A DNA stretch of 64,000 nucleotides from Isoetes taiwanensis (lineage: Eukaryota > Streptophyta > Lycopodiopsida > Isoetales > Isoetaceae). The notes below the pieces were generated by a model, which was not told where the DNA came from, did no database searches, and saw nothing but the letters and a program-made list of their open reading frames with translations. The stretch lies in assembly GCA_021234155.1 (NCBI GenBank), contig JAJEKV010000002.1, forward strand, positions 43,823,203-43,887,202. Reading direction: 5' to 3'. Below are positions 18,437-61,192 of this stretch, one piece after another. Made by a program: the position numbers and the translations under genes. The number at the start of each line of letters is the position of its first letter. The stretch's first letter is position 1.

Positions 18437-18850
18437 CTAAGCAATCATTCCTGTTTTTGTATTACCCTCCCGATTTTTTACTTGATCTTTTGTTACCATG
18501 TGAGAAAGCATCAGAATAATCAAATGGACCTGATTTAGTGGTACGCAATCATCCTCCAGAAGTTCGTCCTCAGCAGCAGCCAGGTTAATGCTGCTCCCAA
18601 CATTTGGATTTGCAGGCAGATTGCTTTTTCCAGCGATTACTAAACGGCATGCTTCAATACTTGAACCAGGGCGTTTCCCCAACACTGGCTTCTTGATAAA
18701 ATTGAGGTTAATACCAGCATGCCTAGCCATATCCTCCAGAACAGATTTCTTGATGGCCACTCCATCATTCTTACAGTCAATCCCCTTTAACAAACGGATG
18801 ATATCAGCTTTAGTGGGCTTAGAATTGCCTGATCCCTCAGTTCTTGTCAT
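18437..18850 (-). CDS. 137-aa SAP-like small protein, right (upstream) repeat copy
   Basis: Twin of 10716-11135 with a 6-bp deletion that keeps the frame (RLLKGID against SLLREKGID). Maintenance of the frame across an indel hints at selection for coding, or at a recent shared origin. Confidence 0.4.
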   Translation of the reverse strand: MTRTEGSGNSKPTKADIIRLLKGIDCKNDGVAIKKSVLEDMARHAGINLNFIKKPVLGKRPGSSIEACRLVIAGKSNLPANPNVGSSINLAAAEDELLEDDCVPLNQVHLIILMLSHMVTKDQVKNREGNTKTGMIA

Positions 18851-34135: not shown

Positions 34136-35983
34136 CTCCGAAAACAAAAGATGACTTTTTAAAGTAATTAAGCTGCTCAAGCATGGCAAAATATATGGTT
34201 TTACATACAATACGTGCCAGGAATTATAGCCCCAACCATGCGAGGAAAGCCCTCTCACAATAAGAAATGAAATATTGCAAGTTTATGGGAACCTTATGAA
34301 GGGGATAAACACTCCTGAGAGCCCATTACCTCAGACGAGCCTGTTTATCTGAGGTAATAGGCGAGCAGGGGTGTTTATCCCCTTTAACTGTGCAGACAAG
34401 TTTCCTCATCCATAGCTGGGTTATCATAGGTTCGGCAGGCTGCAGCTCGATTATCAGAGGTTGGGCAGGCTATAGATCGGTTATCAGAGGTTCATAGATG
34501 TTATAGATCGGTTATCATAGGTTCTAGATGCAAAGAAGTCCATCCGAGGCTGAGTTGCACGCCGTTGCCCCTTCACAGAGTTTGCTTGCCTGTTATGCCC
34601 TATCACAGAGCATGGATCAATGGCCAGAAATGGCTTGATCCAAAAGCGTGCCAGTTAAGGTTAGAGAAAATACAAAAGGTAAGGAGATGCTTGCCTTCAC
34701 TAACCAACAAAATCCCGAAGCTCGTGGAATGTGGAATATAAGTACAATGGTGTCCATGTTGAGCGTAACGAAGGGTTGCATGTCGCCGCTTCGCCAAGGT
34801 CATAATCTGGTTGACAACGAGGGAGCAAAGACTCTGTCAACAGAGGAAAAAGGAAAGATTCTTGGATCTTGGCAATTCATTTAAGCCCACACCTTGGATA
34901 TTGCGAGGGCCACCACTTGGCATCTCAATATTCAGACACTCAAACTTCTCATGTGACCTAATCAAGTCATGACAATTGGACGTTTAAAATTGTCCCATAT
35001 TTTCTGAGCCGTCCATCGCTTGTAGCTCTCTCTGCCCTTTCTTCACCCTATATTTGGGCCCATCTTCTAGTAGAAATTTCTGTGATCGATCCATCGAATC
35101 TATCGTGGATTCTTGCTCTAAATTAACTCGGCATGATCATCTGATGTAATCTTCACGTAGAGCACGATCTGCCAAATTTTCGATTTTTGCGCCCCGTCTT
35201 CGGTCATGAGTTGCATTCGATTTCAAGTTCTAGTGCCGGTTGAAAGGATCCGGCATAGCTGCCAATTGCTTGGGGCATGTGTTTGTTCACGAATTTGGGG
35301 TTTCTAACAGAGGCCATTTGGATCAAAAGCTTTGGAAGCGTATAGTTCAGTCTGATATAAAAGTTGCTATTCCAATTCGTATTACTCTCTGAAGAATTGG
35401 CTCTATCAAACACTAAAAGACGTAATACAGTAGTGTAGGCTTTATAAAAGAAGTTGTTGTGCCGAAGAAGAAATAATGGGATTATAGCTGCAGGAAATCT
35501 TCATTTTGGATCGGTGAGTCCTTTGCCTTTTTTCCTTTGATGATATGCTAATTCCTTTACAGTAACCGCACAGTGAAGTCTTCTTGTGTTCTCTAAGCTT
35601 AGCCGGATGATATATGTTTTGTCAAAGTCATTAAAATCTTAGATCATAAAGACAAAGGGAAACATTACGATTTTGCATGATTGATTATAGAAGGCTGCAT
35701 TTGCATATGTTCTTAGTTTTGTCCTAGGATATACATTCACGTGCAAAGAAGGTTATCGACAGACTGATATCGTAGCCAAATGCTATAAGTTACTTTTTTA
35801 TGCCGAGAAAAGTGCTTTTACATCTTGTTGACTAAAGCTATTTGTGAAAGATGATTTCGGACATTGGCTATGAAGTTGTCCTACGGCATTGTTTCATGGT
35901 GGAAGGAATGATTTTAGTTGTAACAATTAGTTGTTGTAGATAGTGTAGTAACTCTGGCTTCTGTGTTCTTCAGCTGTGACATA

Positions 35984-38900: not shown

Positions 38901-40164
38901 ATGCGAAGTACATTGGGAACATCCGGACTATTCAGCAATACCTTTATAAATGTGCTGACAAGCATTTGGTACCAAAATTAAATAATACTAACGTTGATAA
39001 GAGTGTTGCTGCAATTCATGCAACTATTTTTAGTCGCCTACGTAGAAGAGAAGCTGGTGAACCACTCTATGATCAGCCAACAAATACTGTAAAGGTTGTT
39101 GATCAGGAGTATCGGAGTCAGTATGCAGCATCTTCGTTGGGATCAAAATGCATGTTCCAGTTAATACAAAGAAAAGGTTCTTCCCATCATTTAATGACAT
39201 TGATGAATATTGATGGATCTGTGGCCAAGGCATGGCCTATTGAGTCTATAGATACAAGTGGAAACTACATTTCAGGTAATGGCAGTGAAACCCTCGGAAG
39301 TCCTGTTTATGGACCTTTGCAAATAGCAAAGGCTGAGCCGGTGAATTTGCAGTTTGGAAACTTTGGTTTAAGTGCTTTCCCTGCGGAAGCAAGCAGCAGT
39401 GTTGATACTCCTGGCAGAGATGTTACAGAGGCCGGAAACTGCATGAATGCAGATTCACCTCGCTACGGAGAAGGTGCAGAAAAGGAGGTACGGCTGTCAA
39501 GTCATTTGATTTTTTTTCTTGCATTGATGTGCATCTGGCATCATTTAAATGTTCATGATTTTATTAATTCCATAAATTTAGGTTTTACTAATCCGAGTTG
39601 TAAATACAGTTGCTTGATGAGGCAACGGAGTTTGTACATGAAGAAGAAGCTGAAGAAGTAACTGCTTGCCTTGATAGTGATGAAGATCTTGATGAAAATG
39701 CACAGAAGCTAGAGGATGAAGAGGTTGTGCCAAGGTTTTGCTATTCAAATTTCATCCTTATTTTCTCTATGTTTGCTTAAAGTGGTTGATCCTATAACTG
39801 GCAGTTGGAGGGCTCTGTGAATGAGAGTATGAGGTCTGATGAAGAGGAAACTGAAGACAATGTTATTGATCACATTGAAGACAATGACACTGCGCATGTG
39901 GAGTCCAATTCGTCTGATGAACATGATGAAGATTATGCCACTGGGAGTACGTCACTCCCACGCATTGAAGATCTTTCTTTTTATATGCCTAACCACATCA
40001 GGAATGGCTTTGGTAGTTGTGGAAATGACTATTGTAGTTCTGTAAATGCAGATAAGGTGGTTGATTTTGATAAGCTAAAACAACCACAAACAGCGGAGAG
40101 CTCTGTCTCTCTATATGGGAAAGAGATGCAGAGTTTAGGAAAAAAGACATTTCCATGCTTCTAG
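35984..40164 (+). CDS. 2-phosphoglycerate-kinase-like P-loop protein, complete, seven exons, 727 aa
   Basis: Exons with GT-AG borders and matching phases: 35,984-36,145; 36,590-36,882; 37,335-37,416; 37,504-37,962; 38,774-39,487; 39,610-39,723; 39,805-40,164. The start is the ATG in [15 protein letters not shown]; an acceptor-like CTTCAG just upstream suggests a 5'-UTR intron. Exons 1-2 carry the ATP-cone-like N-terminal domain, exon 3 the Walker [11 protein letters not shown], and exon 4 continues [18 protein letters not shown] with an EGVHL strand. Exon 5 starts [16 protein letters not shown], then [14 protein letters not shown]. The last two exons are acidic ([27 protein letters not shown]). 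Length and architecture match plant homologues of archaeal 2-phosphoglycerate kinase of about 720-740 aa. The biochemical role in plants is not established from sequence. No defects seen. Confidence 0.92.
36920..37100. repeat. tandem duplication inside intron 2 of the 2-PGK-like gene
   Basis: A ~65-bp unit, ATTACTAGTCTGGTCTAAGAACTGC ... TTTTTTTTAATAATTAAG, occurs twice back to back (36,927-37,030), with a third diverged copy (TATCACTAGTTTTCTCTAAGAGCTGC) near 37,077. The exact match of the first two points to a recent duplication. Confidence 0.8.
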
Positions 40165-43378: not shown

Positions 43379-44236
43379 TCAAATTCCCTTTTCAGCAGGT
43401 ACAGGTACATGTTTAGTATATTGTTTTGCTTTCTCCCCTGATTTATACTCATAGTATCCACAACTGCAGCTCCAGAAAGTGCTAATAAAGTTAAGGCCTG
43501 TGCATGTATCCTGAAAGATGCAAGTTGCATGTATCAGTTACATAAAATAAAAAAATTTATGGGCTTCTAACATGTAACTCTCATAAAATGATTAACAGAC
43601 TTCTTCTGCTTCTTTGTTCTTAGCTAACTTACCAAAGTAAACAAATTAAGGCAGAAGAAAGAACAAAAATAGCTTACACACTCCTTTCTATTATCATCTC
43701 TGTAAATAATAGTACTATACGTAGGTATTCACATGTTAAACTATCCGCATGTTAAACTCCTTGAAGAGAAATATTTTAGATCTTAATCTTCAATATATTC
43801 ATGCTATTCAATGCAATAAATACACTGTTTATTGCACACTAGGGCCACAGTAGAGCCATAAGTGAAAAAATAAAACCGATCGATTTAACATAATCTCACC
43901 ATATCACAGCTCAACAGACCAGGTTATCATCAGCAAAATAAAAAAGGCAAGCAAAAATTTCCCATACCTGGCATGTATGATCTTTACACTCAACTTCCTG
44001 GGCTGGGAAAAATTCCATGCGAATGATCCTGCCAAAGCCATGGCCCAAAACGTCCCTAACCATATTGAAAAACTCACATTATAGCCATGTGATAAGGAAT
44101 TCAACAGATAAGCGATAGGAAAAAAAAGAAAAAGCCCCAAAAAAGGCTTACCGACAGTGCGAAGCTTATGATCGACGACCCAAGTGCAAAGCGATTCCAT
44201 AGTAGTCTTTTCTGTCTTTTGGTCGGAAGAAGCCAT
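43379..44236 (-). CDS. HIG1-domain (hypoxia-responsive family) mitochondrial membrane protein, apparent frameshift in last exon
   Basis: Exon 1 44,236-44,152 (MASSDQKTEKTTMESLCTWV, then VDHKLRTVG), exon 2 44,055-43,968 (TFWAMALAGSFAWNFSQPRK, then SVKIIHAR), exon 3 from 43,510 (IHAQALTLLALSGAAVVD). HIG1/RCF1 proteins are two-helix inner-membrane proteins linked to cytochrome c oxidase. HAR-x-HAQALTL is the family hallmark, split here by intron 2. In exon 3 the frame as written runs on to a non-homologous tail, while a one-base shift at about 43,457 gives the expected YYEYKSGEKAKQY and a stop at 43,379. This is either a sequence error or a real defect in an otherwise clean gene. Confidence 0.85.
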
Positions 44237-46799
44237 GGAAGCGATTGAAAGGAAGATTAGATCGAAGATTTAAAGGAAAGATGGTAAAGCAGAAGGTCTG
44301 GCGAGCTAGAGGGGGTGGCTTGCTTGCGTATATGGATTTAGAACGAAGGATCCTCTGCGCTAGGTCAGTTTCAGCAATTCAATCGATTCAGAGCCACAAA
44401 TGCAGAATCGAAAAATAAAAGGGCCTGAAAGATACAAAGGCAGGGGTCATGTCTAAAAACCCAAATCTAGCTTGGCTATGGTAGCCGAGCAAAAAGGGGC
44501 CATTTGAAAGAGATTTTTTCTTAAGATCATAGCGAGGTTGCAAAGAATGCCAATTTGAATATGGTTTATCTAGCTATTAGAAATTTTCTTGACAAAAGGC
44601 ATGAGATCTTGTAGCACTATCCAAGCTTCGAGCTCGCAGCTTGGAAGCAAACTAATTCGTTGCTTACCAAATTTCAGCGATTCGAAGAGCTTGGACCAGG
44701 GTAAATCGGGTCTGTACCAGGCCTAAATTGTAAATTTTGTGAGGATTTATCCATGCCAAGGTTGATTTGAAGCAGATTGCTGCCGAATTTTCCTGCCACC
44801 AATTCCTCTACAATCGGTTCCGCCATAAATGCTCATAAATGCGTCTGAACACGCATTAATGCCCTGCAATCAATGAGTGCACGTGTCATGTTTTCGTAAT
44901 TTTTAAGGAAGAAAATAAAGGAGAACAAAAATGGGACACTGCATTACATAAGAAGGATGACGTTTTGCAAAATCTAGTAGAAATTACTATAAACTTACTA
45001 TTCTTAGATACTTTTTATTTTAGGTTGAAGTCCTTATCCATTCTATCAAAGAACATTCTAGAGCTATCTAGAAGTTTCTGGAATATTCTAGAGCTTTAGA
45101 AATCACTCTAGAACTATCTAGAACATTTTAGAACTTTTCTAGACAAAGTATTGGATTAACGAAGTTAAAAAAATAATATCCCTAATATATAATTGTAATA
45201 CGACTGATAAAGGGGCAGCTTAAATAATTATTGTTTATAGAAACTTCTATGCTTACAATTAAACACGTGCAAGCCTCAAGAATTTTAAGAAGCAAGCGGT
45301 GGCTTCGAGAAGCTTTTGTTGGTTCTGGAACCTTCTAGGTCATGGCTCTTCTAGAACACGAAGCTCTCTCCATTCTAAAAGTATCTAGAAGCTTCTCTTG
45401 CAAGCTTTGTGTGATGTTCCAGGGAAATATACGCCATAAATACGTATATTTTTAGGTCTATCATTATACAAGTCTATCTCCATAGCCTTGTATACCATAG
45501 ATTAGTGTATACCATAGGTTAGTGGCATAGGGTGCATGTCTAAGTTATTCATACAAGAAATTTATCCTGCATAGTTCGACTTGCTATTTATATCAAACAT
45601 CTAGTAATATATTGCTATTCAATTCTCGATTTTTGTCTGTCTAATCCTACCCTGGACTTGATTTTTGAGCTATTTTATGAACATGAGGCATGACAAACGA
45701 ATAATGTTTTAGTTGCATATTTGTTATAGGCATTGTGCGGATTAACACCATTGCAGGTTAAGAAAAAAGAAGTAAAACAAATTTGGGGCAACAATCAACA
45801 TATGCTTAGTTAGCATTTGCTTAAGAGTACCAAAAGCATTTGCATTTCCTCGTTGAAAGGAGTTAAGCACTAAGGAAGTATGTGTTAGTATCATTCTCAT
45901 TATTGCAAAATCCATTGAATGTACTATACTCATATTTGCATTATACTCGTACTGATTTTTGTGTCCTTCCTTTTTTAGTGACCATCACTAAGCAGTCACT
46001 GTATTTAAATAACCCTCGTGATGGTATTAGATTTTTGACCCTCAGGGATTTAAGTCCCTGAGCTTCTCATCGAAGCTATGAACAGATGGTTTCGAACCCT
46101 ATCTAACATTTGCCCTTTTCTGGAAAGCACGATTTTGGAGAGAAAAGCTCTCTCTGTGTTCTCTGTTTACAATCGATTCAACATTTCAGAAGCATCACGG
46201 TCTCTCGTTACTGGCCAGAGAAATGCCCAGACATAATTGCTGACAAACCGCACAGAGATGGCAAGAGCCGATGAACACTGCCATCATTCCAAGTTCTTTA
46301 TTTTCTGAATGTTGGTCACTGTGCCTTCTACGCTCAAGTTGTGGAATGTATGTGGCTCCATTTAATGCCACGAGGATCGTTGCCTATCCAACTACTTTCC
46401 CAGTGCTACGTCCTTTTGGAAGTTCTGAGCAAATAGAGGAAATTATCCAGTAGTGAAGGCTGCGTCAAACAACTCAAAATTGCAGTAAACAGGGACAGAT
46501 TTTGCAGAAGCCGCTCAGAAAGAACCTTTCAAGGCCTGATTTTTCGATGTGCTGACCTGTCCAAGCTAAACCCACAGTTCAGAAAACTCCAGTTTCGCTG
46601 CTAAAATACCTGCGCTCCCTGTTCGCTATTCACTGCTGACCATCGATACCCTAGATAGGCTGGCGACCCAAGAAGAACAAATCCGAATCCACTAATCTCT
46701 ATAGATCACCCCATTAGAATGTAGATGCTTTCCAGGCAGACATTTTCCAGTGCTGGTAATGAAGTATAATTTCATTCAAATACAACAGAAGAAAGAACT
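44237..46799. other. intergenic region between the HIG1 gene and a hypothetical frame
   Basis: 44,237-44,900 is probable promoter DNA of the HIG1 gene. 45,030-45,400 holds the heat-shock-element-like cluster. A short open stretch at 46,271-46,453 (+) has no recognisable product. Confidence 0.4.
45056..45400. promoter_or_regulatory. cluster of heat-shock-element-like GAA/TTC sites
   Basis: At 45,071-45,092 the units alternate perfectly: GAAgtTTCtgGAAtaTTCtaGA, five contiguous nGAAn units. Further sites lie at 45,110-45,140 (CTAGAACTATCTAGAAC) and 45,310-45,390 (TTCtgGAAccTTC, TTCtaGAAcacGAA, GAAgcTTC). Heat-shock factors bind three or more such units (established). Whether a gene or TE here uses them is unknown; CTAGAA repetition alone could produce some of them. 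Confidence 0.55.
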
Positions 46800-47439: not shown

Positions 47440-48000
47440 CAAAATGATTTATATATGTTTTGATAACTTAGACACCCTTAGGGTAAGGCCATTTTCCACG
47501 TGCCTTTATCCTATTGAGCAACCGCCACACGGCATTACCTTATTGGAGCCACGTGGCATAACATGTGAACCCTAACCTATAAAGGCCTAAACCCTAACCC
47601 TAGGCCTCTTTTCTGGCTCCAATAGCCTGGGAACCTTCTTCGCGCTCGAAACTCCATTTCGAGAACCGTTTGCTGTGGCATAGCCTAGCACAGCAACCCC
47701 CGGAGCGTGTGCGCGTCAGTAGGAGTGAGAGCTACTTCAACGACCTTGAAGACCATGGAGACGCCAAAAGCAGGAGGGGGTTCCTTAGGAGCAGGTATTT
47801 GGGTTAGAGTTCTTTGTAGATCATCTGGAAGTTAAGACTCTAGATGAGTTAGCATTTCGTGTCTCTAGTAAAGCCTTCTTAGAACCCTCAGTCTAGATCT
47901 TGAACCCTAATCAATGAACCCTAACTGTAAGTTAGATGTGTATGATTAGGTTTAGATGTTATTCTCATTATTATCATGTATGTGGATATGTGATGTTGGT
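47440..48000 (+). mobile_element. 5' part of an older LTR, split by the chromovirus
   Basis: Contains a TATA-like CCTATAAAGG (about 47,577) followed by a leader. Its text breaks at 48,000 (TGATGTTGGT) and picks up at 61,188 (TTGGTTGATCATG) after one TTGGT duplicate. The resumed part (61,225-61,655) matches the chromovirus LTR in order (GGGGGTAGAGACC, ATGCTCCTAG, GCGGCCTGTG, GGGCTAGG). The 5' border of the old LTR is not defined. Confidence 0.6.
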
Positions 48001-49683
48001 TGTGACGTTCCAAGTATTTATACGGTATACGTATAAATATATTAACACGTCACCCAGTATAGATACGCCACCATGGGGTATGGTAACCTAGGGGGTTGAC
48101 CTAAAAGGGATTAAATTAGCTATGCTAATTTAATTATTAAGGATAATAACCTATAATTAAGGAATTAATATTTAAGAAGGATAATTAAGCTAATTATGGT
48201 TTGGGAAGGCGCCACCTGGCCAAACCCAATTGGCCAGCATGGTGAATACTAATTGGAACCATCAAGGTGGATCACCACCCCCATATCAACCATAATCGAC
48301 CAAGAGAAGCTGAGCGCCTACCTTTGCCAAGCTGAGCGCCACCTTTGCCAAGCACTTATACTTGTGTAACCAGGGCTGAGCACCAAGTCCCAGGAAGATG
48401 GAAGCACCAAATGACAACGGATCCAGTAGGAACTCAGGTGGGTGGTTAGTATAGCTTGAGAATTCTAGGGTAGCGCCCCTGTTGGGCACTTGTTGTGTTG
48501 TTCTGTCTGTTCTCTCTGTGCTTTACTTGTAGGAACTAACCCTTGATTGTCAAGGTAAGTTCTCTTTATATTCTGATTCTGGTTCTGCTCTTAAAGGATG
48601 GATTGATAATTCTTTGCATAGTATTACTCTGGAAATGGGGGAATTAAGGGGGGTAGAGACCTCTGAGCCATGATAGTAGGATGCTCCTAGGTTGATCCCT
48701 GTATTTCCCAGTAGATTGCGGCCTGTGTACAAGAGACCACCGAGTCGTGGATGCTATGGAGTGACTTAGCACCAAACAAGGGACACAGTGGTGAAGTGGG
48801 GGTGGGGTCTTGCACGAACATAAAAGGCTCCTGAGACTCCTACAGTGGGCTAGGCCTGATAGCCGGTCACGTAGAGGGCCGGGTATGGGTCTGACACTCT
48901 CTGGGTGTAGATAGCCGGTCACGTAGAGGGCCGGGTATGGGTCTGACACTCCCTGGGTGTAGAGGTGTGATCCGTATGGAGCATCTTGCACTTTGAGTAG
49001 ATTTAGGGTGAGTAAGTCGGGTACGGATGCGGGGGTCGCTGATGCGGCACGTATTCTCTAGCTCACCCATGAAACCACTGTGATCCTGGAAGGGGACGCT
49101 TCCCCGACCTGCCTCATCGGACGGGGCTTCATGAACCCTGTAGTAGGCTCGAAGGGTGATACCTTGAGTCTGTGTGTCCGGAAGGCTATAGTGACGCCAT
49201 AGCATGATTGGACTCATCTGCAAAGTGTGCACAGGAGGGGCGGATGGAGTGGACAACCCTAGCCAATGTTCTATGCCAGCCAACGCCATGCCAAGATTCG
49301 GTCTGCTGAGCTCTTGAGACCTAGCCGTCAGTCGATCCTCACTGGAGTCTGAGCCGGGGTAGAACCATGGGTTTGGGTGTTTTCCTTAGTATTAAATGCA
49401 TATTCGTTGTTGTTGTCACTTGGATGGATGTGCCACCCCTCGTGGTGGTAAATTATGATATGATTATGTTGTGTGCTGACCTTGTATTCACGCTTCCGCG
49501 ACGTAGGAGCCCCATTGAAGGCGTGGGCCGAATGACCCCTCTGTGTCCTTCACTTGAGCATCTTTTTTTATAGATGCCCCGAGTTAGACGAAGGGCCCTG
49601 CTCATGGTGGGTTGGTCACCATGGGAGGGGAAAGTCCCAGTATGTATACGTCCGAGTGTCGTATATGTTCAGGGAGCGTCACA
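48001..49683 (+). repeat. 5' LTR of the chromovirus
   Basis: 1683 bp, TGTGACG...CGTCACA. Contains inverted GGTATACGTATAAATATATT-like AT-rich DNA near the start and an internal duplication of a ~51-bp unit (AGCCGGTCACGTAGAGGGCC) at 48,858-48,962 that the 3' LTR lacks. Confidence 0.95.
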
Positions 49684-49684
49684 G

Positions 49685-49697
49685 TGGTATCAGAGCC
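49685..49697 (+). other. primer-binding site, initiator tRNA-Met
   Basis: TGGTATCAGAGCC starts one base after the 5' LTR, the standard plant tRNA-iMet complement used by most plant Ty3/gypsy and Ty1/copia elements. Confidence 0.95.
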
Positions 49698-50390
49698 GTG
49701 ATTTTGGTTACTCGAAATCATAGCACTGATCAAACCCTAACTCGTTAGTTCGGTAGTTAGGTGGGAGTTAAGCTAGTGCGATTGTTTAGCTCTTTGATGT
49801 TTGGTTTTGTGCTATTGTTGTAGTAGAATTGTAAGTTTTTAAGAGGTTTAGGGCGACTGGAAGACCCAAGTTTGGAAGGGCTATAACTTTTTGTAGGTAG
49901 CTCGGATGAAGGCGAAAACGGCTCCAATGGATCGGGCACCTCCCAAATACCCTAAGGGGCACGTCTCCCGAGGGCGAACAGACAACAGCTGGCCGAAAAA
50001 TCAAAAGGGGCGCTGCTGTCTTCGGAGGTGTTTTTCTCGACGAGTTGAGGCCGTATAAGGATCGCAGCGCTCCATACGGTCGCGCGTATTTTTATACGCG
50101 CATGTTTAATTTTTTTTTTTTTTTTAAAAAAAATATATTTTGAAGAAAATTTTTATAAAAAGTTAAAAGTTAAATTTTAAATTTTGAACCACTTTTTGAA
50201 GAGTGTGCTTTCTCGTGCAACTTCCTACCGCCATAGCCGACGGACCTGAGCTCCCATCTCGCCATAGCTGACCTCCACGGCTACTCTGCATCTGCTCTAA
50301 GCCCTAGCGCCCTCGCCTACCCTCCAGCGCCGCCTATCCCAGCTTGAGCGCCCTACCTCTTCTCCCTTGTTGTTCATTGCCAGTGCTACC
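49698..50390 (+). other. untranslated start of the leader module
   Basis: No gene seen. Contains the T/A-run 50,107-50,190 and then a GC-rich stretch (CTCCCATCTCGCCATAGC, GCCCTAGCGCCCTCGCC) leading to ATG 50,391. Confidence 0.5.
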
Positions 50391-51760
50391 ATGCCGCGTT
50401 TTAAACTTACCGTGGACCTCAAGAAGATGAACGTATTTCAGCTGTTTAGCGTGCTAGTAGATCATCTTTCGGATGATAGCCCCACCATTGATACGGTTTT
50501 AGACCTTTTTGTGAAGCACTTCATTGAGGGCCGCAGAATCCCCTACCCCAAATGAGCGCTTCCTTATGAAACTAAACGCTGCAGATCAGCCTTACACTCT
50601 TGTAGAGCAGCCGGACCACGCTTGGGCCGTAGTTAGGTTCTATCCCTCAGCCAGGACCAGATGAGGACCCCGTGAGAGCTTATCGAAATGAGGCCCAAAG
50701 GAACATGCACCTTGCTAGGGTAGAAGACCTTGACAAATAGCTAGTGCCCCACCGGGCCATGCAGGCTAACGCTTTTTTACTACCTTGGTAAGGGCCGTGT
50801 ACTTATGTATCAAGACTATTATAATCTTCCTACCTTCTTTTGGAATGAAGACCTTAATAGCTTCATTTTTGAAAATGTTCCACCTAATTTTGACCAAGCC
50901 CGCATGGACCTCGTGCAAAGTGACATCCGGAAGCCTTCGGATAGGTACCATCTGAGGAGATTGCCAGTTAATATAAATGCGCTTTGGACAAAGAGGCCGG
51001 GATGCGAAGAGAGAGAGCCCAGAAGGAAGAGGAGGATGCCCAAAATCAGCAGAGCGGGAACCAACAGGTGGATCAGCAAGACGACCAGCAGGTTGATCAG
51101 CAGCAGGAACAAGATGTTGATCAGCAGCAGAATTCAGATGTTGATCAGCAGTAGGATCAAGGTGTTGGTCAGAATGTTGACCATCAGGGAGACCAGAATA
51201 CGGGTCAAAATGTGAACCAACCGGTAGATCAGAGCGGGCCCCAGAATAGGAAGCATACGGAGTGGGGTAACAGGAAGTTGAAGAGAAAGAACACCAAACC
51301 CGTTAAGGGAGGTGTGGATTACAAGACCCGATTACAAAAGAATGCCGCCATTGCCAAGAAGACATCAGCTCAGAGGCGGGAGCAAATCGTGCAGCGGGTC
51401 AAGCATCCAACTACCGGTGGGAAATCCCTCCCATCGCTAAAAGCGACCCTCAAGCCGCGAAAGCCCCATAGATACCGACCGGGCACGGTAGCACTTCGGG
51501 AGATACGTAAGTATCAGAAGTCTACTGAGCCAATGATTCGTCGGCTTCCTTTCCAGCGGCTTGTACGGGAAATTGCCCAGGAGTTTAAAACTGATCTGAG
51601 GTTCCAAGCCTTTGCAATCCTCGCACTCCAGGAGGCTGCTGAGGCTTACCTCATAGAGATTTTGAGTGACGCCAACCTCTGCGCGATACATGCGAAGAGG
51701 GTTACCATCATGCCCAAGGACCTCCAGCTAGCTCGAAGGATCCGAGGGGAGTTTCGGTGA
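50391..51760 (+). pseudogene. leader ORF-A: long N-terminal region fused to a histone H3 fold
   Basis: Starts MPRFKLTVDLKKMNVFQLFS. Frame shifts near 50,548 and 50,650 and stops (about 50,750; TAG at 51,151) interrupt the N-terminal ~250 residues, which include NLPTFFWNEDLNSF and a Gln/Asp repeat (VDQQ.. units, 51,060-51,230). The last ~110 codons are open and clearly histone H3: [80 protein letters not shown], ending at 51,760. Loop 1 has no CenH3-type insertion, so it is closer to canonical H3. The H3 tail is rewritten: the TGGK(14) context is kept, but the residue aligned to K9 is not Lys and the A-R-K-S(28) segment is missing. It precedes another ORF with its own TATA-like site. Fusion with gag is not indicated. 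Confidence 0.85.
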
Positions 51761-51941
51761 CTAGGCGACTCTCTTTCTTCTATTGTAAAAATTTTTGTGG
51801 ACTTAATTATGTGAAATATTCCCAATTTTCGGGTTGTGAATATAAAAAAATGTTTTTTTTCGCCACTTGGTGTGAATTTAAAAATAAATTATTAATTAAA
51901 TAATAATTTCTAATAATAATTTCGGGAAACGTGCTGAAAAG

Positions 51942-51948
51942 TATAAAG
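51942..51948 (+). promoter_or_regulatory. TATA-like box before leader ORF-B
   Basis: TATAAAG about 80 bp before ATG 52,028, followed by TTAGGGTTTCATTTTCCC. A comparable TATAAATAG with CTTAGGGTTCTTCATTCTC stands before the H3-like ORF of the older element (62,189), so the leader ORFs may have their own promoters. Confidence 0.45.
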
Positions 51949-52027
51949 CCCCTTTTTGGCCATTAGGGTTTCATTTTCCCTTCTTGCTTTTCGCGTTTTC
52001 CTTCTCCTCTCTTGCGCCTTCAACCTT

Positions 52028-53024
52028 ATGGATCGCCCAACCTTATAGCAGTGGTATCTAGATGGAGAGCATTGGGACCCCGCGGTCCCCTTTGACCTTC
52101 TTCACCCTTATCTCCTCCAGCAGGTAGACCTCGTCTCCAACATGCGGCACCCGGACTATCTTTGCCTTCCTTCCGGTTTTCCATGAGGAGATTGTACGCC
52201 TTGCGTCTTCAATGAAGACGACACACAACTCTATCTCGACTTCCACACTTTGCTCGAGATGCTAGGAGATGATGAGCACGCCCGGAATGTCATCAAGGGC
52301 ATAAGGAGGCGGGGGACTGACCTCCCTATTGTTACAATAGATCGGGAAACTTGTTTTGAGGCCCGATTTGCATTGGCCATCATCATGGACCAGTATATTG
52401 AGGACGAGGAGATAGGCTGGCGAGCATTCCTCTACGCTGTACCTCGACCCGGGAGGAAGGCGAAGTCGTCGTCGGCGAAAGCGAGATTTTGTAAGGTGGA
52501 GGGAACTTGCCACTGAAGCCCCTGCAAGTCGAGAGAAAGCCCTCAAGCTCGAAGGGCTAAACCTTCTCCCTACAGTACTCTTGAATAACCAAGAGTACCT
52601 AATTCTTGAGGACATTATGTGGGCCTACCGCGTCATTGCTGGGATGCGGGGCCGCAAAAAGATAGAGGTCCTCTATGATCTTGCTGAGTATTGCCAGGAC
52701 GACTTCCTCGACTTTACCACACCGGTTGTGCATCCCTCACCAGTTGAGAACTTGTTGGCATACCGGCCAGAAGAACTAGAGCCCGTTGAGACCCTTTTGT
52801 CACTTCGGTCGTTCTTGTTGACTGGCACACCCCAGCCTCCGGAGGAGCACTTTGCAGCTCAGATGCGCCCCCCACTCGCAGATCCGCCTTTGCAAATCAC
52901 CATGGGAGAGCTGGATCAGGAAGAGGAAGACCTTTGGGACACCAAGGTCAGCCTTAGAGATGACAAGGAAGAAGTAGAGGAGGAGAAGCTCCCCGTGAAC
53001 TTGGAAAAGGGATCCTCAGATTAG
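52028..53024 (+). pseudogene. leader ORF-B, ~330 aa, unknown
   Basis: ATG 52,028; TAG at 52,046, TGA near 52,183 and a frameshift around 52,460 break it. Readable parts: QWYLDGEHWDP, LHPYLLQQVDLVSNMRHPDY, DDTQLYLDFHTLLEMLGDDE, then LLNNQEYLILEDIMWAYRVI, KKIEVLYDLAEYCQDDFLDF and an acidic end. It has no known domain. By position (long upstream part followed by the histone-fold-like ORF-C) it may be a paralogue of the non-histone part of ORF-A. Confidence 0.5.
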
Positions 53025-53028
53025 GGCA

Positions 53029-53403
53029 ATGGGTAACCATGTGCCCCGATTCTTTCTTTCAGCTTTCCGGCAAGGAGAGGTACTGTTCTTCTCCAAGAAC
53101 TTGGGGCCTTCTTCTGAAGCTTCTTGGTGGGCGCTCCGAGCCATATCCACTTCAGCGGGCCATAAGAAGATTGACTATCACGCCACTACCATTACCTTGG
53201 TCCGTAGGGATTTGGCTATAGCAGCATTGGGGGACGTGGCAGGCTGCGCTAATATGCGGCTCCTTGTGGCGGCACCTTTGGCCACTTGCTTACCACCAGA
53301 GGCAGCAGCTCGAGCCGCCCTCTCTGCTAGCCCCAGTGCTACCTTGATGTGCTACCGTCCACCTCGTCAGCCTATGGACGAAGAGGAGGGACCTAGTTCT
53401 TAG
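53029..53403 (+). CDS. leader ORF-C, possible second histone-fold protein
   Basis: 125 codons, open. Residues ~30-75 contain PSSEASWWALRAISTSA and YHATTITLVRRDLAIAAL. The second segment aligns without gaps to the loop2-alpha3 signature shared by H3 ([11 protein letters not shown]) and H4 (HARRKTVTAMD): H-A-x-x-x-T-x-x-x-x-D-[IVL]-x-x-A. The first resembles QSSAVAALQEA of H3 alpha2. The helix between them is shorter than in H3. The C-terminal Ala/Pro-rich part has no match. This is a pattern-level call. Confidence 0.35.
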   Translation: MGNHVPRFFLSAFRQGEVLFFSKNLGPSSEASWWALRAISTSAGHKKIDYHATTITLVRRDLAIAALGDVAGCANMRLLVAAPLATCLPPEAAARAALSASPSATLMCYRPPRQPMDEEEGPSS

Positions 53404-53565
53404 AGATTTGTGTTACGCATTTTGTACTGCATATAGTTGTAAATTTTGGTTTGGCATGAATACAATTAAATTGTTCTCTTCCATGATACGTCCTTGTAAC
53501 TGTAAGAGCTTAGAATATAAGGAAATTGTGCAATGTTCTATATTCATTCCTACCGTCTTGCAGAC

Positions 53566-54108
53566 GAGGGACTCGAAGAATATGAAGAAAGAATTACCAA
53601 CCAGATACGAAGGGGTGATCCAGGACCACCTGACCAGGATTATGGCCAGCGGAATGGGGAGGTAGGCTACGAGGTAGGGGAACCCGCACAGCCAGGAGAG
53701 CCCTATGATCCAGCCAAGGGGATGGAGGTAGTTAACATTCTCAGGGAACGGGCCTTTGACGACCTGAAGCAGACTCTTCGTCGCACATGGGACTATTGGG
53801 ACATGTCAAGGCACGAAGCTTTTGAGGATGCCAACGATCACCTGTGGCAGATTTTCTATGCATTAAGGAGGCTCTTCAATCTCCTTATCATTAGCCCAAC
53901 ACTGGATTATCAACCTGTTATCGTCCAGGCTTGGGCTCGCTACAAGTTTAATAGTGAGAGCTGTACGCGAGAGCGTTCGCTACTCTATCTTGTACCCTTT
54001 CGCGAACCCCTAGGCCTGGTTCACTCAGTTTTGTTTTTTTTCTATGTTATGTGTGAGTTAGAGAAATGTCCAATGTATAATACTTGTCTTTGTATTGTAT
54101 CTCTTTAA
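53566..54108 (+). CDS. leader ORF-D, unknown, possibly a spliced exon
   Basis: A TACCGTCTTGCAG acceptor-like site precedes DEGLEEYEERITNQIRRGD. The following ~130 residues are charged and helical (RAFDDLKQTLRRTWDYWDMS, then HEAFEDANDHLWQIFYALRRLF). No family recognised. The open frame runs on to 54,108, but text after about 53,960 looks non-coding. Confidence 0.35.
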   Translation, partial: EGLEEYEERITNQIRRGDPGPPDQDYGQRNGEVGYEVGEPAQPGEPYDPAKGMEVVNILRERAFDDLKQTLRRTWDYWDMSRHEAFEDANDHLWQIFYALRRLFNLLIISPTLDYQPVIVQAWARYKFNSESCTRERSLLYLVPFREPLGLVHSVLFFFYVMCELEKCPMYNTCLCIVSL

Positions 54109-54266
54109 GTTTTGTCACTACCAGTGTACTAAACTCTGATGTAACACTATTCCCACCTGTAATAAAGATCTTTGCTTATACTCTTTTATGTATTTTCTCT
54201 CAATACTATCCGAAATGATATTCTTCATGAGACTTCATATCACTAAAATTCTGCTTATATCTTTTC

Positions 54267-55901
54267 ATGCTCGATAAAGACGGTGCACGTAACGTCGTCT
54301 GGCAGCCGCCCTCAAATGCCAGTAGACTAACACCTGAGCAAGAACTAATGTTGATGAAGCGACAATTAGTTGAGCTGCAAACCTATGTCTTGAATGCCAA
54401 CCCACCGCAGCAGGTACAGGAGGATGGACCGGAGTTACCTCCGTTGCCGCCAAGTCCACTACCCCAATAGCCACTTGCACCTGAACCAAGCCCTGTACCC
54501 GCACAAAGGAAGCACCGTTCCAAACGCCATCGAAGTTCCTCTGGGGATAGTGCCACACCCTCACAATCAGCCACTTCTGAGTCCTCTGAGTCATCCGTAT
54601 CCTCGCGTGATCACCCAAAGCGCCGGGACAAGGAATACCGTAAGACGGTTGATACGGCCATAACCAGTATATGGAAAAACAGGAAATTAGCCCAGTTCGA
54701 TGGGAAATCTAGAGGCGGGCTGAATGCAGAGTCCTGGTTGGACGAGATGAAGGAGTTTGGGAAATCCTATGGCATGACAGAAAAGGATACAGGAAAGGTT
54801 GCCACCACAAACCTTACAGAAGCTGCTCGTATTTGGTGGAAGGGCTATGCCAGAGCCAAGCATCTGGACAGAAGCAGATGCAAATTCAGGAAGTTTGCCA
54901 AAGCTTTTAAGTCGCATTATGTGCCTCGTGCGCACAAATGTCAGCAGATTCAAACTTTCTACCGGTTAGAGCAGAAGGGTATGTCAGTTCAGGCCTACAC
55001 TGATGAATTCATGCGCTTGAGGCTGTATGTGCCAGGAATGAATGAAAAAAGGGCGGTGGAGGGCTACATTGAAGGGTTGGCCCCATCAATTAAACGAATG
55101 GTTAAGGCCATAGACCAGAAATCAGTTGCAGAGGCTGAGGCTAAGGCATTGAGCCTCGAGGAGGACATGCCAAGAAACCAGTACCCGCATCCTGCTCCTT
55201 ACTCGCAACCACGCCCGTCTACACCTTATAAACCCCGCTCACCGAGTCCGGGGCCCTCTCAGCAGAACTCCAACGGCCGCCCGGAAAAGAAAGTCACCTT
55301 CAACATGCCCGACAAACCGAACAACGTTGGTAAGGAAGTTCGGAATCTCTTACAGTCTATTTCCAAAGAGGCTCGAGAATAGCTCCGCCGAGATAAGGCA
55401 TGTTATAGGTGTATGCGGCCCGGGCACTTCATGCAGAATTGTCCCTATGTCACGCAGACTGCCCAGCTGGCCATGGCTGACCTCGATTGGGATGACCTCG
55501 AGTCCACTCTACCTGTCGAGGAGGAGCCTCCCGAGTACATTCAGGGTGAGTCCCATATCCTTGCAGCCATTGAAACTGGCAATGCTGAAAGTCAGCCTGC
55601 CGTTATTTCCACCATAGGTCAAGTAGACAGCAAACCTTTTATAATACTGATGGATACGAGTAGTACACATAATTTTGCTTCTCCTAGAATGGCCCAGGTA
55701 TTGCGACTTGAAACTTTGAGATCCCGACCGAAGCCTGTCACTTTAGCCAGTGGTAAGATCAGACACACTCATGGCCGTCGCATTAACCTTAAGATGCAGT
55801 TGCCAGGTGCACCAGTTGCCTTGGGTGCCGAGATAATGGATATTGGCAAATATGATCTTATTGTTGGATGGAATTCTTGGCATCTGCAAAAGCCAATATA
55901 G
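54267..55901 (+). pseudogene. chromovirus gag and protease
   Basis: One frame with two TAG stops (54,468 and 55,380). An S/R-rich part precedes the Retrotrans_gag core: AQFDGKSRGGLNAESWLDEM, EAARIWWKGYA, FKSHYVPRAHKCQQIQTFYRL, YTDEFMRLRLYVPG. The CCHC knuckle is CYRCMRPGHFMQNC (just after the second stop). The aspartic protease region reads ILMDTSSTHNFASP, where the usual DSGATHNF has become DTSSTHNF. A frameshift near 55,870 separates it from RT. Both stops sit where Gln codons would fit. Confidence 0.85.
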
Positions 55902-57383
55902 ACTGCGAGAAATGGGAACTTACCTTCAACGCCGCTAACGGAGCCCGCGTGACTATAAAAGGTGACTCCTTAAATTCCATTATGCAGTCTATCACCATCG
56001 GGCAGTTAGATAAGGCTATACGTAAAGACAAGTTGCTTTGCATTATTAGACTTGCCTCCATTGAATCAGATGCCAAGCAGAAGCAAGTAGTTGACACCTT
56101 GCCAGAAGGGATTGCCAATATTCTTCGAGAATTCACCGATCTTTTTCCAGAGGAGATCCAGAAGCTTCCTTCTTTTAGAGGGGTAGAATGTGAGATAGCT
56201 TTGGAACCAGGTACCAAGCCTACCAGTAAGGCCCCGTACCGTATGAGTCCCCCTGAGTTGGCAGAGCTTAAGAAGCAGCTTCAGGAGTTACTAAACCTAG
56301 GGTTCATCCAGCCTAGCGTTTCGCCCTTTGGCGCTCCTATCTTTTTTGTTAAGAAGAAGGATGGCTCTTTAAGGATGTGTATTGATTATCGGCAACTCAA
56401 TAAGCATACCATCAAGAATCGCTATGCTTTGCCTAGGGCAGATGATCTAATGGACCAGTTGCAAGGGGCCAAGTATTTCTCAAAGATTGATTTACGCTCC
56501 GGATATCATCAAATAAGGATTAAGGAGGAGGACATCCATAAATCTGCTTTTCGCACTAGATATGGGCATTATGAGTTTACCGTTATGCCTTTTGGATTAA
56601 CTAATGCCCCCCGCAACATTTATGCGGTTAATGAATGATGTCTTCCGACAATACTTGGATGATTTTGTTGTTATTTTCTTTGACGACATTCTCATCTATA
56701 GTAAGACCCTGGAGGAGCATGAGAAACATCTTCGGTTGGCCCTAGAGAAGCTAAGACGCCATCAGCTCTTTGCCAAGTTCTCTAAATGCAAGTTTGCCAC
56801 TCCCAAGGTGGATTATTTGGGACATATCATTTCAGCAGAGGGCATTGCTACAGATCCAGCAAAGATAGAGGCAGTAAGAGACTGGCCTATTCCGGGTAAT
56901 GTTTCAGAAGTCCGGAGTTTCTTAGGACTAGCAGGATATTATCGGAAATTTGTTAAGGATTTTGCAAAGATTGCCGCACCTCTTACTGATCTCACAAAGC
57001 ACGAGAAGGTGAAGGATTGGATTGAACACTGGAAAGCAAAAGTCCAGGTAGGTTTTCAGCAGCTTAAGGATGCTTTAACGTCAGCACCAGTCCTCACATT
57101 GCCCGATCCTGAGAAGGATAAATTAGTAGCAACGGATGCCAGTAAAATTGCTACCGGTGGAGTCCTAATGCAGGAAGGAAGGGTTATTGCCCATGATTCA
57201 AAGAAAATGAGCGAGACGGAGCAGCGATACCCTACCCATGATCAGGAATTGTTAGCCGTTGTCCGTGCTCTACGGATATGGAGACACTACCTTCTTGGTA
57301 GAAGATTCTAGCTGGATACGGATCATCAGAGTCTCCGTTACTTATCCACCCAGCCAAATCTCAATCTCCGTCAGAGAAGATGG
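55868..57383 (+). pseudogene. chromovirus reverse transcriptase and RNase H (start)
   Basis: [61 protein letters not shown] and, after a one-base insertion in a C run (56,605-56,610), [20 protein letters not shown] with the intact DD, and [15 protein letters not shown]. RNase H starts [17 protein letters not shown] at 57,309-57,311 falls before LDTDHQSLRYL. Confidence 0.9.
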
Positions 57384-58680
57384 ATGGAATTTCTGGAGGA
57401 ATATGACTTCGAGATTATGTATAAGCCTGGGAAACACAATGTGGTTGCGGATGCCTTGTCACGTCATCCCTTGGTAACCCGAACCCATTGTAATGCAATT
57501 TCTACACTCACCAGTGAGTTTGGGAAACAGATAGAACAGACCTTGGCCACGGATCCCGGGTTCCGTGATGTGTGGGATAGTTTGACTAAGGAAGCTCGCA
57601 CAGATAAAGATCATGAAGCTGTCCGTTCGTATAAGAAAGAAGGCAACTTGTTATATTACAAGGATAAGTTGTGTGTACCTGAGACTTCAGGAGTACGTAA
57701 ACTCATTCTCCATGACACGCACAACAGCCCTATAGCTGGACATGCCGGTTTTATGAAGACCTACTTTAAGATCTGCTCCAGTTATTTCTTGGCCTTCGAT
57801 GAAGAAGGACATCGCCAGGTATATTAAACAATGTCAAATCTGTCAACAGACCAAGGCTGAGCAACTAAGGATTCCAGGAGAGTTGCAACCGTTGGATGTG
57901 CCCAATGCTAAGTGGGAGGTGATAACCATGGCTTTCATTGTGGGCCTTCCACGTACTCTCCGTGGATACGATGCATTGATTTTGCAAAGGAGATCTTCAG
58001 ACTGCACGGAATGCCACAAGTTATTGTGTCCGACAGGACCCCAAATTCGTAAGTGCCTTCTGGAAAGATTTCTTTGCTACCATCCAGACCAAGCTTGCTA
58101 TGAGTACGGCATATCATCCCCAAACGGATGGTCAGACTGAGCGTACCAATCGTATTATAGAAGATATGCTACGGAGTTATGTGTGGAGTAAGCAATCCCA
58201 ATGGGCTGACTATATTTATCTGGTCGAATTTGCCTATAACAGTATGAAACAGGAATCTTCCAGAATGTCTCCCTTCATGATAAATTATGGTTATCAATGC
58301 CTTACTCCAGACACATGGCATAACCCCGTTTCTAAAGTGGAGGTTTCTCAACAACTCCTCCTGGAAATGCAAGCTTTGGTTGAAGAAGTACGTGGGTACT
58401 TATTAGCGGCACGCAGTCGTCAGAAGAGTGTAGCCGATAAGCACAGAACCCCACGCGTCTTCCAGGTGGGCGAATCAATTTGGCTTAAGATTAAAGTAAA
58501 ACAAGCCAAGCTTAAAATTGGTAACTGCAAGAAGTTGGCACCCAGATGGGCTGGGCCGTTCAAAATCACTGAACGTGTTGGGGAACAGGCATATCGCCTG
58601 GAATTGCCACCCCACTTGAAGATCCACACGGTCTTCCATGTGAGTCTTCTAAAGCAAAGACACCCCCGGATCGGAGGAGA
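57384..58680 (+). pseudogene. chromovirus RNase H end and integrase, catalytically broken
   Basis: The RNase H/linker ends in KPGKHNVVADALSRHP. The integrase zinc finger (H-x-x-H..., then CQICQQTKAEQ) is split by a frameshift near 57,810. In the core, WEVITMAFIVGLPRT has Ala where the first catalytic Asp (MDFIVGLP) belongs, about 40 residues are missing after GYDAL, and a shift near 58,090 precedes HPQTDGQTERTNR, which keeps the Glu. The C-terminal GPF and LKIHTVFHVSLLK motifs are present. Confidence 0.88.
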
Positions 58681-58682
58681 TC

Positions 58683-58976
58683 TTGGATACACCCACCCTA
58701 CTTGAGATGACAGAAGAGCAATTAGATATAGTGCCTGAAGCTCTTCTTGATCGAGTATATAAGCAGACCAGGAGGACCCAACTGCTACAATACTTGGTCA
58801 AGTGGAAACACTTGCCAGTTGAGGATGCTACGTGGGTAATGGAAACAGATCTTGAGAAGCACTATCCGGACTTCATGCGCGAATCTCAAGGCCGCACCAT
58901 CAACGATGCTATCAACCCCGCACCCGGCGGTAAGCGTGGAAGCTTGATTGCCGACAATAGCGCTGTAGAGGGGTAG
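58683..58976 (+). CDS. chromovirus integrase C-terminal chromodomain
   Basis: EALLDRVYKQTRRTQLLQYL, VKWKHLPVEDATWV and ETDLEKHYPDF form a chromodomain; aromatic cage positions correspond to Y (QYLVKW), W and W. Chromodomains in this position target integration to heterochromatin histone marks (established for chromoviruses). Detached from integrase here by a frameshift. Confidence 0.88.
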   Translation: MDTPTLLEMTEEQLDIVPEALLDRVYKQTRRTQLLQYLVKWKHLPVEDATWVMETDLEKHYPDFMRESQGRTINDAINPAPGGKRGSLIADNSAVEG

Positions 58977-59568
58977 ATGCATCTTAAATAAAAAGGGTAC
59001 CGATGATGAGATCACCTTTGTCTTCTCTAGGACGTGGTGTACTGTCGATGTTGACATGACCACGAATTGCTTGGAGCATATAGTTGATAGGCCGCGTTCA
59101 TCTCGGCTACAATGGGAACTTCACCATTCCCTACGCTGCAATGAATTGCAAACCATATACATGATAGGTTTTCCCGTAGCTAGATTTTCTTTTATTTCTT
59201 ATAGGGGGTGGTCCCTTCAACCACAACTTAATCATCTTATATATATTATATATACTGATGTGCTCACATGTGCAGGCCAGTGAGCAGTACGTGACCTGCC
59301 CATGTATAGAGAGTTGCTGATGGCTCGACTTTTCCAGTTTTCATTGTGTCTACATGTGTTTCCTTCTTGTTACTCTGATATTTGATATTGGACTTCGGTC
59401 CTTGAACTTCTTGCTTATGATAATCATGTGAAATGCACCTCGGTGCTTAAACTGTTTTAAACTTTAAAGTTTTAATATATTACCTTCGGAAATAAGGAAT
59501 TACCTTCCTTCATAATGTCATTTCCTATATTTATACCTAGCCCCAATGCTGGGGACAGCATTAATTCT
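58977..59568 (+). other. 3' untranslated region of the chromovirus
   Basis: No coding function seen; ends in GCTGGGGACAGCATTAATTCT just before the PPT, usual for plant Ty3/gypsy elements. Confidence 0.6.
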
Positions 59569-59581
59569 AAGGAGGGGAGAA
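59569..59581 (+). other. polypurine tract
   Basis: AAGGAGGGGAGAA directly abuts the TGTGACG start of the 3' LTR. Confidence 0.9.
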
Positions 59582-61187
59582 TGTGACGTTCCAAGTATTT
59601 ATACGGTATACGTATAAATATATTGACACGTCACCCAGTATAGATACGCCACCATGGGGTATGGTAACCTAGGGGGTTGACCTAAAAGGGATTAAATTAG
59701 CTATGCTAATTTAATTATTAAGGATAATAACCTATAATTAAGGAATTAATATTTAAGAAGGATAATTAAGCTAATTATGGTTTGGGAAGGCGCCACCTGG
59801 CCAAACCCGATTGGCCAGCATGGTGAATACTAATTGGAACCATCAAGGTGGATCACCACCCCCATATCAACCATAATCGACCACGAGAAGCTGAGCGCCT
59901 ACCTTTGCCAAGCTGAGCGCCTACCTTTGCCAAGCTGAGCGCCACCTTTGCCAAGCACTTATACCTGTGTAACCAGAGCTGAGCACCAAGTCCCAGGAAG
60001 ATGGAAGCACCAAATGACAACGGATCCAGCAGGAACTCAGGTGGGTGGTTAGTATAGCTTGAGAATTCTAGGGTAGCGCCCCTGTTGGGCACTTGTTGTG
60101 TTGTTCTCTCTGTTCTCTCTGTGCTTTACTTGTAGGAACTAACCCTTGATTGTCAAGGTAAGTTCTCTTTATATTCTGATTCTGGTTCTGCTCTTAAAGG
60201 ATGGATTGATAATTCTTTGCATAGTATTACTCTGGAAATGGGGGATTAAGGGGGTAGAGACCTCTGAGCCATGATAGTAGGATGCTCCTAGGTTGATCCC
60301 TGTAGCCTGTGTACAAGAGACACCGAGTCGTGGATGCTATGGAGTGACTTAGCACCAAACAAGGGACACAGTGGTGAAGTGGGGGTGGGGTCTTGCACGA
60401 ACATAAAAGGCTCTGAGACTCCTACAGGTGGGCTAGGCGATGGCAGGTCCGCGTGAGGGCGGGTATGGGTCCGACACTCCCTGGGTGTAGAGTTGTGATC
60501 CGGTATGGAGCATCTTGCACTTTGAGTAGATTTAGGGTGAGTAAGTCTGCACGGATGCGGGGGGTCGCTGATGCGCACGTATTCTCTAGCTCACCTATGG
60601 AACCTTTGTGATCTGGAAGGGGCGCTTCCCAGGCCTGCCTCATCGGACGGGGCTTCATGAACCCTGTAGTAGGCTCGAAGGGTGATACCTTAGTGCGTGT
60701 GGGAAGGCTATAGTGACGCCATAGCATGATTGGACTCATCTGCAAAGTGTGCACAGGAGGGGCGGATGGAGTGGACAACCCTAGCCAATGTTCTATGCCA
60801 GCCAACGCCATGCCAAGATTCGCTCTCCTGAGCTCTTGAGACCTAGCCGTCAGTCGATCCTCACTGGAGTCTGAGCCGGGGTAGAACCATGGGTTTGGGT
60901 GTTTTCCTTAGTATTAAATGCATATTCGTTGTTGTTGTCACTTGGATGGATGTGCCACCCCTCGTGGTGGTAAATTATGATATGATTATGTTGTGTGCTG
61001 GCCTTGTATTCACGCTTCCGCGACGTAGGAGCCCCATTGAAGGCGTGGGCCGAATGACCCCTCTGTGTCCTTCACTTGAGCATCTTTTTTTATAGATGCC
61101 CCGAGTTAGACGGAGGGCCCTGCCATGGGAGGGGAGAGTCCCAGTATGTATACGTCCGAGTGTCGTATATGTTCAGGGAGCGTCACA
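59582..61187 (+). repeat. 3' LTR of the chromovirus
   Basis: 1606 bp, near-identical to 48,001-49,683 apart from substitutions and indels, including an extra GCTGAGCGCCTACCTTTGCC unit near 59,890 and losses around 60,300-60,560. Confidence 0.95.
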
Positions 61188-61192
61188 TTGGT

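Follow-up and report, generated by a model that had tools for sequence, protein, structure and literature searches.

A histone H3 fusion gene under purifying selection lies between the 5' LTR and gag of a chromodomain Ty3/gypsy retrotransposon lineage in Isoetes taiwanensis

Introduction

Known chromoviruses read histone marks through their chromodomain, and to our knowledge no chromovirus has been reported to encode a histone. The Ty3/gypsy element of Isoetes taiwanensis described here resembles the chromoviruses CRM, Tekay, Galadriel and Tcn1, as presented in the accessible part of PMC3350952, in its LTRs, its gag-pol genes and its integrase chromodomain. The closest precedent that we found for an H3 gene borne by a transposable element is H3L of the fungus Pyrenophora tritici-repentis, where, according to the accessible text of the report, H3L is borne by a hAT DNA transposon and numbers 26 genes, 21 of them identical (PMC3538342). 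The authors suggest there that H3L genes may have drifted. H3L shares with the Isoetes gene a transposon-borne location, an altered N-terminal tail and multiplication in the genome, but its carrier, as described in that text, is a DNA transposon with terminal inverted repeats, whereas the Isoetes element has LTRs and gag-pol. Relative to the same account, the Isoetes element also differs in its thousands of first-look candidates, its deeply divergent clades, its large N-terminal fusion and its purifying selection. The first-pass annotation of this DNA knew of no described plant Ty3/gypsy family with an H3 accessory gene. That statement holds insofar as no histone-encoding LTR retrotransposon occurs among the literature matches listed (titles and abstract openings, with subscription journals thinly covered), but transposon-borne H3 as such has the fungal hAT element as a precedent (PMC3538342, accessible text).

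Extra ORFs of plant LTR retrotransposons (aORFs) lie more often between pol and the 3' LTR and have an env-like or undetermined role, in the portion of the review by Vicient and Casacuberta (2020, PMC7264820) drawn on here. The gene studied here, ORF1, resembles these aORFs as an additional ORF shared by many copies of one LTR family but differs from those described there in sitting between the 5' LTR and gag and in carrying H3; the main text of that review does not contain the word "histone". An orchid Gypsy element with an ALKBH5-like m6A demethylase ORF likewise represents a captured host regulatory gene kept as an accessory ORF, but the accessible text describes an RNA demethylase in 25-kb elements and no histone (PMC9289625). 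Viral singlet histones, which include the H4 of bracoviruses and the single H3s of DNA viruses, offer a further parallel: they are core histones taken from a host that keep the fold, have a changed or lengthened N-terminus and are believed to join the nucleosomes of the host (PMC9145170, in part). These histones belong to DNA viruses, with divergent or extended tails in the same account, whereas ORF1 fuses a domain of ~200 residues and a linker to H3 (PMC9145170). The accessible text of this review does not use the word "retrotransposon", nor do the two Isoetes genome papers (one of them PMC8566536) use "histone" in their main text.

Here, we show that a chromodomain Ty3/gypsy lineage carries ORF1 as a selected accessory gene between its 5' LTR and gag, and we weigh the roles that such a gene could have.

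Results

The stretch analyzed, referred to as the window, comprises 64,000 nt of I. taiwanensis and contains a Ty3/gypsy chromovirus element at positions 48001-61187. LTR and repeat comparison places a TTGGT target site duplication (TSD) on either side of it (47996..48000 and 61188..61192). The 5' LTR (48001..49683; this and all element features below are on the plus strand) and the 3' LTR (59582..61187) differ by a K2P distance of 0.030, with 46 substitutions over 1,582 aligned sites and 14 gap runs. The 5' LTR contains a 52-bp tandem duplication at 48858-48963, for which the 3' LTR has a single diverged equivalent. The primer binding site (PBS) TGGTATCAGAGC (49685..49696), which we take to be of the initiator-Met tRNA type, lies 1 base past the 5' LTR end, and the polypurine tract AGGAGGGGAGAA (59570..59581) directly precedes the 3' LTR. 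Pfam matches follow the order Retrotrans_gag, Ty3_capsid, a weak zinc knuckle, a weak aspartic protease, RVT_1, RNase H, parts of the integrase and a chromodomain. The first three make up gag (54267..55450), protease, RT, RNase H and integrase make up pol (55451..58702), and the chromodomain (58731..58880; Pfam Chromo, 1.8e-10) ends the integrase. LTRs with a TSD, a PBS with a polypurine tract, the gag-pol order and the terminal chromodomain identify the element as a chromovirus. Because its pol frames are broken, it is a decayed copy. Identity with a hAT transposon of the Pyrenophora H3L type is rejected, as the element has LTRs and gag-pol, and scans of viral contigs and prokaryote genomes returned no relative.

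The window holds other features outside this element. Two direct repeats of ~3.28 kb (97.5% identical) at 9510-20492 belong to another element and flank minus-strand frames of 713 aa (weak RVT_1 match, 1.3e-5) and 547 aa (no match). Plus-strand coding-like exons at 35924-40161, which presumably resemble a plant P-loop/LPA1-type protein, gave no Pfam match among three frames scanned, and a minus-strand frame at 43907-44269 has a weak DUF2427 match (9.4e-4) that falls below the cutoff.

The interval between the PBS and gag spans ~4.5 kb and includes ORF1 and ORF2, two coding regions in addition to gag-pol. The ORF1 region (50391..51760) is composed of an N-domain, a linker and H3. Its 182-aa frame at 51212-51757 matches Pfam Histone at 8.1e-43, and the best solved-structure match of this frame is H3.3 (1.6e-51, residues 72-180). 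The H3 core of 98 residues (51464..51757) aligns without gaps to H3 residues 38-135, a numbering that we assume for the element core throughout. These two matches bear out the initial reading of an H3 fold inside a chromovirus with a TTGGT TSD, in the interval between the 5' LTR and gag, and, together with the matches at 150 of 150 scored places described below, they lead us to reject chance similarity to H3. The core is not a CenH3 either: we would expect a CenH3 to show a loop 1 insertion and a strongly diverged fold, whereas the element core is gap-free against host H3 and identical to it at 79 to 87 of 98 positions in 44 copies. No element-encoded H4 was seen, as only ORF1 matched Pfam Histone among the 13 element frames scanned.

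The first-pass annotation had also read an ORF across 50391-51760 that ends in H3. The H3 end is real, but the window copy does not hold one open frame. An N-terminal piece that begins MPRFKLTVDL (50391..50552) is terminated by a stop, a second stretch in a different frame (50805..51212) covers the end of the N-domain and then runs out of frame in the linker, and an open frame (51155..51757) encodes the Q/D-rich linker end, a basic region and H3. A 24-bp tandem repeat at 51092-51172 encodes the Q/D-rich linker. Since the frame is broken upstream of H3, the full ORF1 protein could not be made from the window copy as read. In copy L002, which is 97% identical to the window over the H3 frame, ORF1 is instead a single open frame of 452 aa from the methionine of MPRFKLTVDL, and open ORF1 copies encode ~450 aa in the order new N-domain, linker and H3.

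The N-domain comprises ~200 residues, 34 of which are invariant in seven aligned members from clades A, B, C and E (see below), including RIPY, YLGxG and DM...P.RY..E..RR. Searches of Pfam and PDB found no relative of the N-domain and nothing credible for ORF2. As read from the sequence, a charged, coiled-coil-like stretch, Q-rich in clade A, follows the N-domain. In the basic segment of the linker, a pattern like YK..L ... RR ... P..G.K.[ILV]P can be made out in clades A, B, C and E but not clearly in D, and the H3 core is entered at [KR][PR]HR[YF][RK]PGT. The start of H3's own tail, ARTKQTARKS (K4, K9), and the K27 context are absent from ORF1. A TGGK-like motif and many lysines persist in the linker, so modification of an ORF1 tail is conceivable. 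Single-sequence structure prediction of the H3 frame was poor (pLDDT 49).

We searched a genome of 1,658,258,908 bases in 1,110 contigs with the H3 ORF and with H3.3, which gave 8,992 and 9,031 first-look candidates, respectively; both numbers are loose, and the two lists may overlap. The 150 places scored per query are those most like it. With the H3 ORF, all 150 (window included) match at 79-99% identity, and a hand count finds an in-frame stop inside the match in 39. With H3.3, the 150 scored places divide into 15 host-type genes (97-99%) and 135 diverged places (72-87%), between which the score drops from 272.8 to 193.1 bits; by hand count, 8 of the 135 have a stop. The chance insertion of a host H3 pseudogene in this copy alone, which the first-pass annotation had raised against its own reading, is rejected by the 150 matching places. 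The H3 ORF is conserved across the family, present in 150/150 scored places and in the same position downstream of the 5' LTR in 20/20 copies read.

All 15 host-type H3 genes are open over 136 codons, intronless, and have Y41, E77 and L90. Fourteen have A31 with S87 (11 genes) or T87 (3 genes), and the remaining gene, L029, has T31 and H87, which we take to be the plant H3.3 signature. One host-type gene, L043 (G000:C907:52034899-52035306), has R42K, while the other proteins of the set are near-identical. Contig C1025 bears 4 of the 15 genes.

Twenty copies, picked for long open frames and hence favoring intact ones, were read over 10 kb and compared by blastn with pieces of the window; one of them, L009, is the same place as L002. 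In all 20 copies, the 5' LTR and leader are followed by ORF1-H3, and 16 have a PBS with at most one mismatch (exact in 14). ORF2 (52028..54105 in the window, where it is decayed and without a family match) follows ORF1-H3 in 17 copies. The exceptions, L011, L012 and L013, have no ORF2 match, and their retention of ORF1-H3 suggests that ORF1 can be kept without ORF2. In these three copies, possibly a compact subfamily, gag begins ~260-285 bases after the H3 end. Gag lies within the 10-kb stretch in 15 of the 20 copies and not in L009, L015, L019, L020 and L021; a long insertion interrupts ORF2 in L009, and a second LTR is present in L021. A DNA match to the chromodomain is present in L011-L013 and in L020 (70%); none was obtained in the remaining 16 stretches, most of which end before its position. 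ORF2 occurs in all five clades. It was read at 2223-3257 of L002 and in L064-L067, and the window sequence is 35-47% identical to that of other clades. A further conserved stretch, EYEERIT...DPGPPxQDYGQR, lies between ORF2 and gag in the window and in L064-L066.

From the H3.3 query, 20 further copies were picked by hand because their frames were long or their H3 match was high or unusual. None of them falls into the window group, clade A: 15 belong to clade B, 2 to C, 1 to D and 2 to E. The duplicates L001 and L009 were dropped from the H3 NG86 pairs, the H3 tree, the residue table and the codon model. L007, which has a stop, was excluded from the last three and counted in the NG86 analyses, and L008 and L016, frame-shifted at one end of the core, were excluded from the residue table and codon model and kept in the NG86 analyses and tree. 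The H3 tree separates clade A from the rest (UFB 100) and supports B (98), C (100), E (99) and the host genes (100). Support for the deeper branching is low (43-83), and there the host genes group with clade C (UFB 83) instead of lying outside all elements, so that the tree does not favor a single capture. A single capture is argued for by the N-domain fusion, common to all five clades (in D from a partial N-domain, read by eye), and by T107A (43/44 copies; one B copy has V107) and I124L (41/44), both the majority state of every clade.

One copy each of clades B, C and E was read on both sides of H3. Their LTRs match the window LTR at 76-87% over longer pieces, the PBS is exact in the B and E copies with none found in the C copy, and all three contain ORF2 and gag, as does D, read downstream only. 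Clades B, C and E occupy the same LTR element type as the window element. The gag DNA of B and E is at best 90.5% and 93.4% identical to clade A gag, respectively, against a median of 88% within clade A (where L013 is an outlier at 67-68%), and the LTRs of both clades are also close to clade A. Median identity to clade A is 72% (B) and 71% (E) for H3 and only 48% (B) and 49% (E) for the N-domain. Because gag and LTR are close while ORF1 is divergent, the ORF1-ORF2 cassette and the LTR-gag backbone of B and E have different histories, and the simplest reading would be cassette exchange between lineages by template switching. The gags of C and D are more diverged, and the mosaic pattern does not hold there. 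In the mosaic copies L047+L064 and L060+L066, ORF1 and ORF2 are far more divergent from clade A than gag and LTR are.

Selection on H3 is strongly purifying, in line with the check proposed in the first-pass annotation. The codon model over 44 element copies gives an omega of 0.040, with lnL -3354.8 versus -3973.1 at omega 1 (a gain of ~618). Median NG86 values for H3 are pS 0.408 and pN 0.032 within clade A, pS 0.404 and pN 0.014 within clade B, pS 0.76-0.95 and pN 0.07-0.14 between element clades, and pS 0.91-0.95 and pN 0.10-0.13 between element and host. Selecting copies for similarity and an open frame depresses pN to some degree but cannot account for saturated pS. Recent gene conversion from host H3 is rejected by the pS against host genes and by the derived residues T107A and I124L, each the majority state of every clade. 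Within clade A, over the copies where each region was readable, the NG86 omega of medians is 0.056 for H3 (351 pairs), 0.058 and 0.042 for RT (105 and 117 pairs), 0.024 for gag (120), 0.092 for ORF2 (250), 0.104 for the N-domain (325) and 0.177 for the linker (351). By these medians, H3 is constrained about as tightly as RT. The per-clade codon model gives 0.094 for clade A (24 copies), a weaker constraint than the NG86 value of 0.056, and 0.023 for clade B (15 copies).

The H3 core equals host H3 at 52 of 98 positions in all 44 copies. Measured against the contact lists that we assumed for H3-H3, DNA and ASF1, its sequence appears to keep most of the residues checked. The listed contacts R40, R49, R83, K115, R116, H113, A114, D123, L126, A127, R129 and I130 are invariant, as are K56, K79 and K122, while R63, R69, R72, T118 and C110 are altered only in rare copies. 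Clade C and a single B copy carry R42K, and all clade A copies carry K64R. The other clade-shared changes cluster at 86-89, 101-107 and 134-135. At residues 86-87, every clade departs from the most frequent host form; H87 in C and E is shared with host L029, and V89 is kept in D. These positions reach into the chaperone-choice segment, which we number 87-90 in the element H3, so deposition could be altered or prevented. This segment reads SAVL or AAIG in the accessible text of the viral histone review (PMC9145170). Taken together, this is the pattern that we would expect if the protein had been retained for its histone contacts while its chaperone segment was altered and its tail replaced.

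Discussion

The long retention of the H3 fusion suggests that it may act on host chromatin, and the conserved residues are compatible with the functions proposed in the first-pass annotation, namely, nucleosome building or mimicry and the steering of integration. Judged from sequence, the most likely role would be an anti-silencing nucleosome, with integration targeting close behind, followed by a decoy and then by cDNA packaging. We give roughly a 40% probability to anti-silencing by a tail-swapped nucleosome, in which the ORF1 H3 core would enter nucleosomes and alter the chromatin of the element. The H3 core would pair with host H4 and be loaded by host chaperones, for which the ASF1-contact residues on our assumed list are unchanged. 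Once in the nucleosome, it would hold the N-domain on chromatin as a replacement tail. Deposition would occur on element DNA, be it newly made cDNA, recent insertions or copies under transcription. Silenced chromatin relies on H3 tail lysines for its marks, and nucleosomes containing ORF1 would be without the H3 tail K4, K9 and K27. Such nucleosomes may resist silencing based on H3K9 and H3K27 and may offer the element's own chromodomain integrase a distinct chromatin. More tentatively still, the element may build a nucleosome of its own from host H4 and a tail-swapped H3, unmarkable at K9/K27 and acting against, or as a parasite on, silencing, with the ORF1-ORF2 cassette swapped between gag-pol lineages like an accessory weapon.

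Several of the same observations bear on other roles. ORF1-H3 could sit in host nucleosomes, or bind H4 or chaperones at replication forks, while its N-domain docks the preintegration complex alongside the integrase chromodomain. The presence of that chromodomain, the 34 N-domain positions invariant in seven members of clades A, B, C and E, and the largely retained contact residues for H3-H3, DNA and ASF1 all speak for such targeting or tethering, which we nevertheless consider somewhat unlikely: the divergence of ORF1 is decoupled from that of gag in B and E, and a tight coevolution with Gag is therefore not seen. Nearly all of the ASF1 and H3-H3 contact residues are unchanged, and at positions 86, 87 and 107 the majority of copies in each clade depart from the host form seen most often, as might be expected if ORF1-H3 titrated H4 or a chaperone (ASF1, CAF-1 or HIRA) and weakened chromatin assembly and silencing without being deposited. 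A pure decoy of this kind would not need the DNA-contact arginines, however, most of which, among those checked, are conserved as well, and we regard it as improbable.

Packaging, in which ORF1-H3 and host H4 would coat the element cDNA as tetrasomes and protect or compact it before integration, seems less probable again. Most DNA-contact residues of H3 are conserved, and the linker is basic with a helix predicted at low confidence, but packaging would call for H4 inside the particle or on the cDNA, and the 13 frames scanned include no element H4. The least likely explanation by far is a host H3 pseudogene captured once and carried without function. The broken upstream frames of the window copy and the stops hand-counted in 39/150 scored copies would suit such a passenger, but we reject neutral carriage given the omega of 0.040, the saturated synonymous sites between clades, an NG86 constraint similar to that on RT, and the retention of the same fusion in five clades.

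Few proteins are as constrained as histones, which also carry the marks by which transposons are silenced. A retrotransposon lineage in which purifying selection has maintained an H3 with its markable tail replaced is a natural experiment on whether the nucleosome as such can be edited by a parasite.
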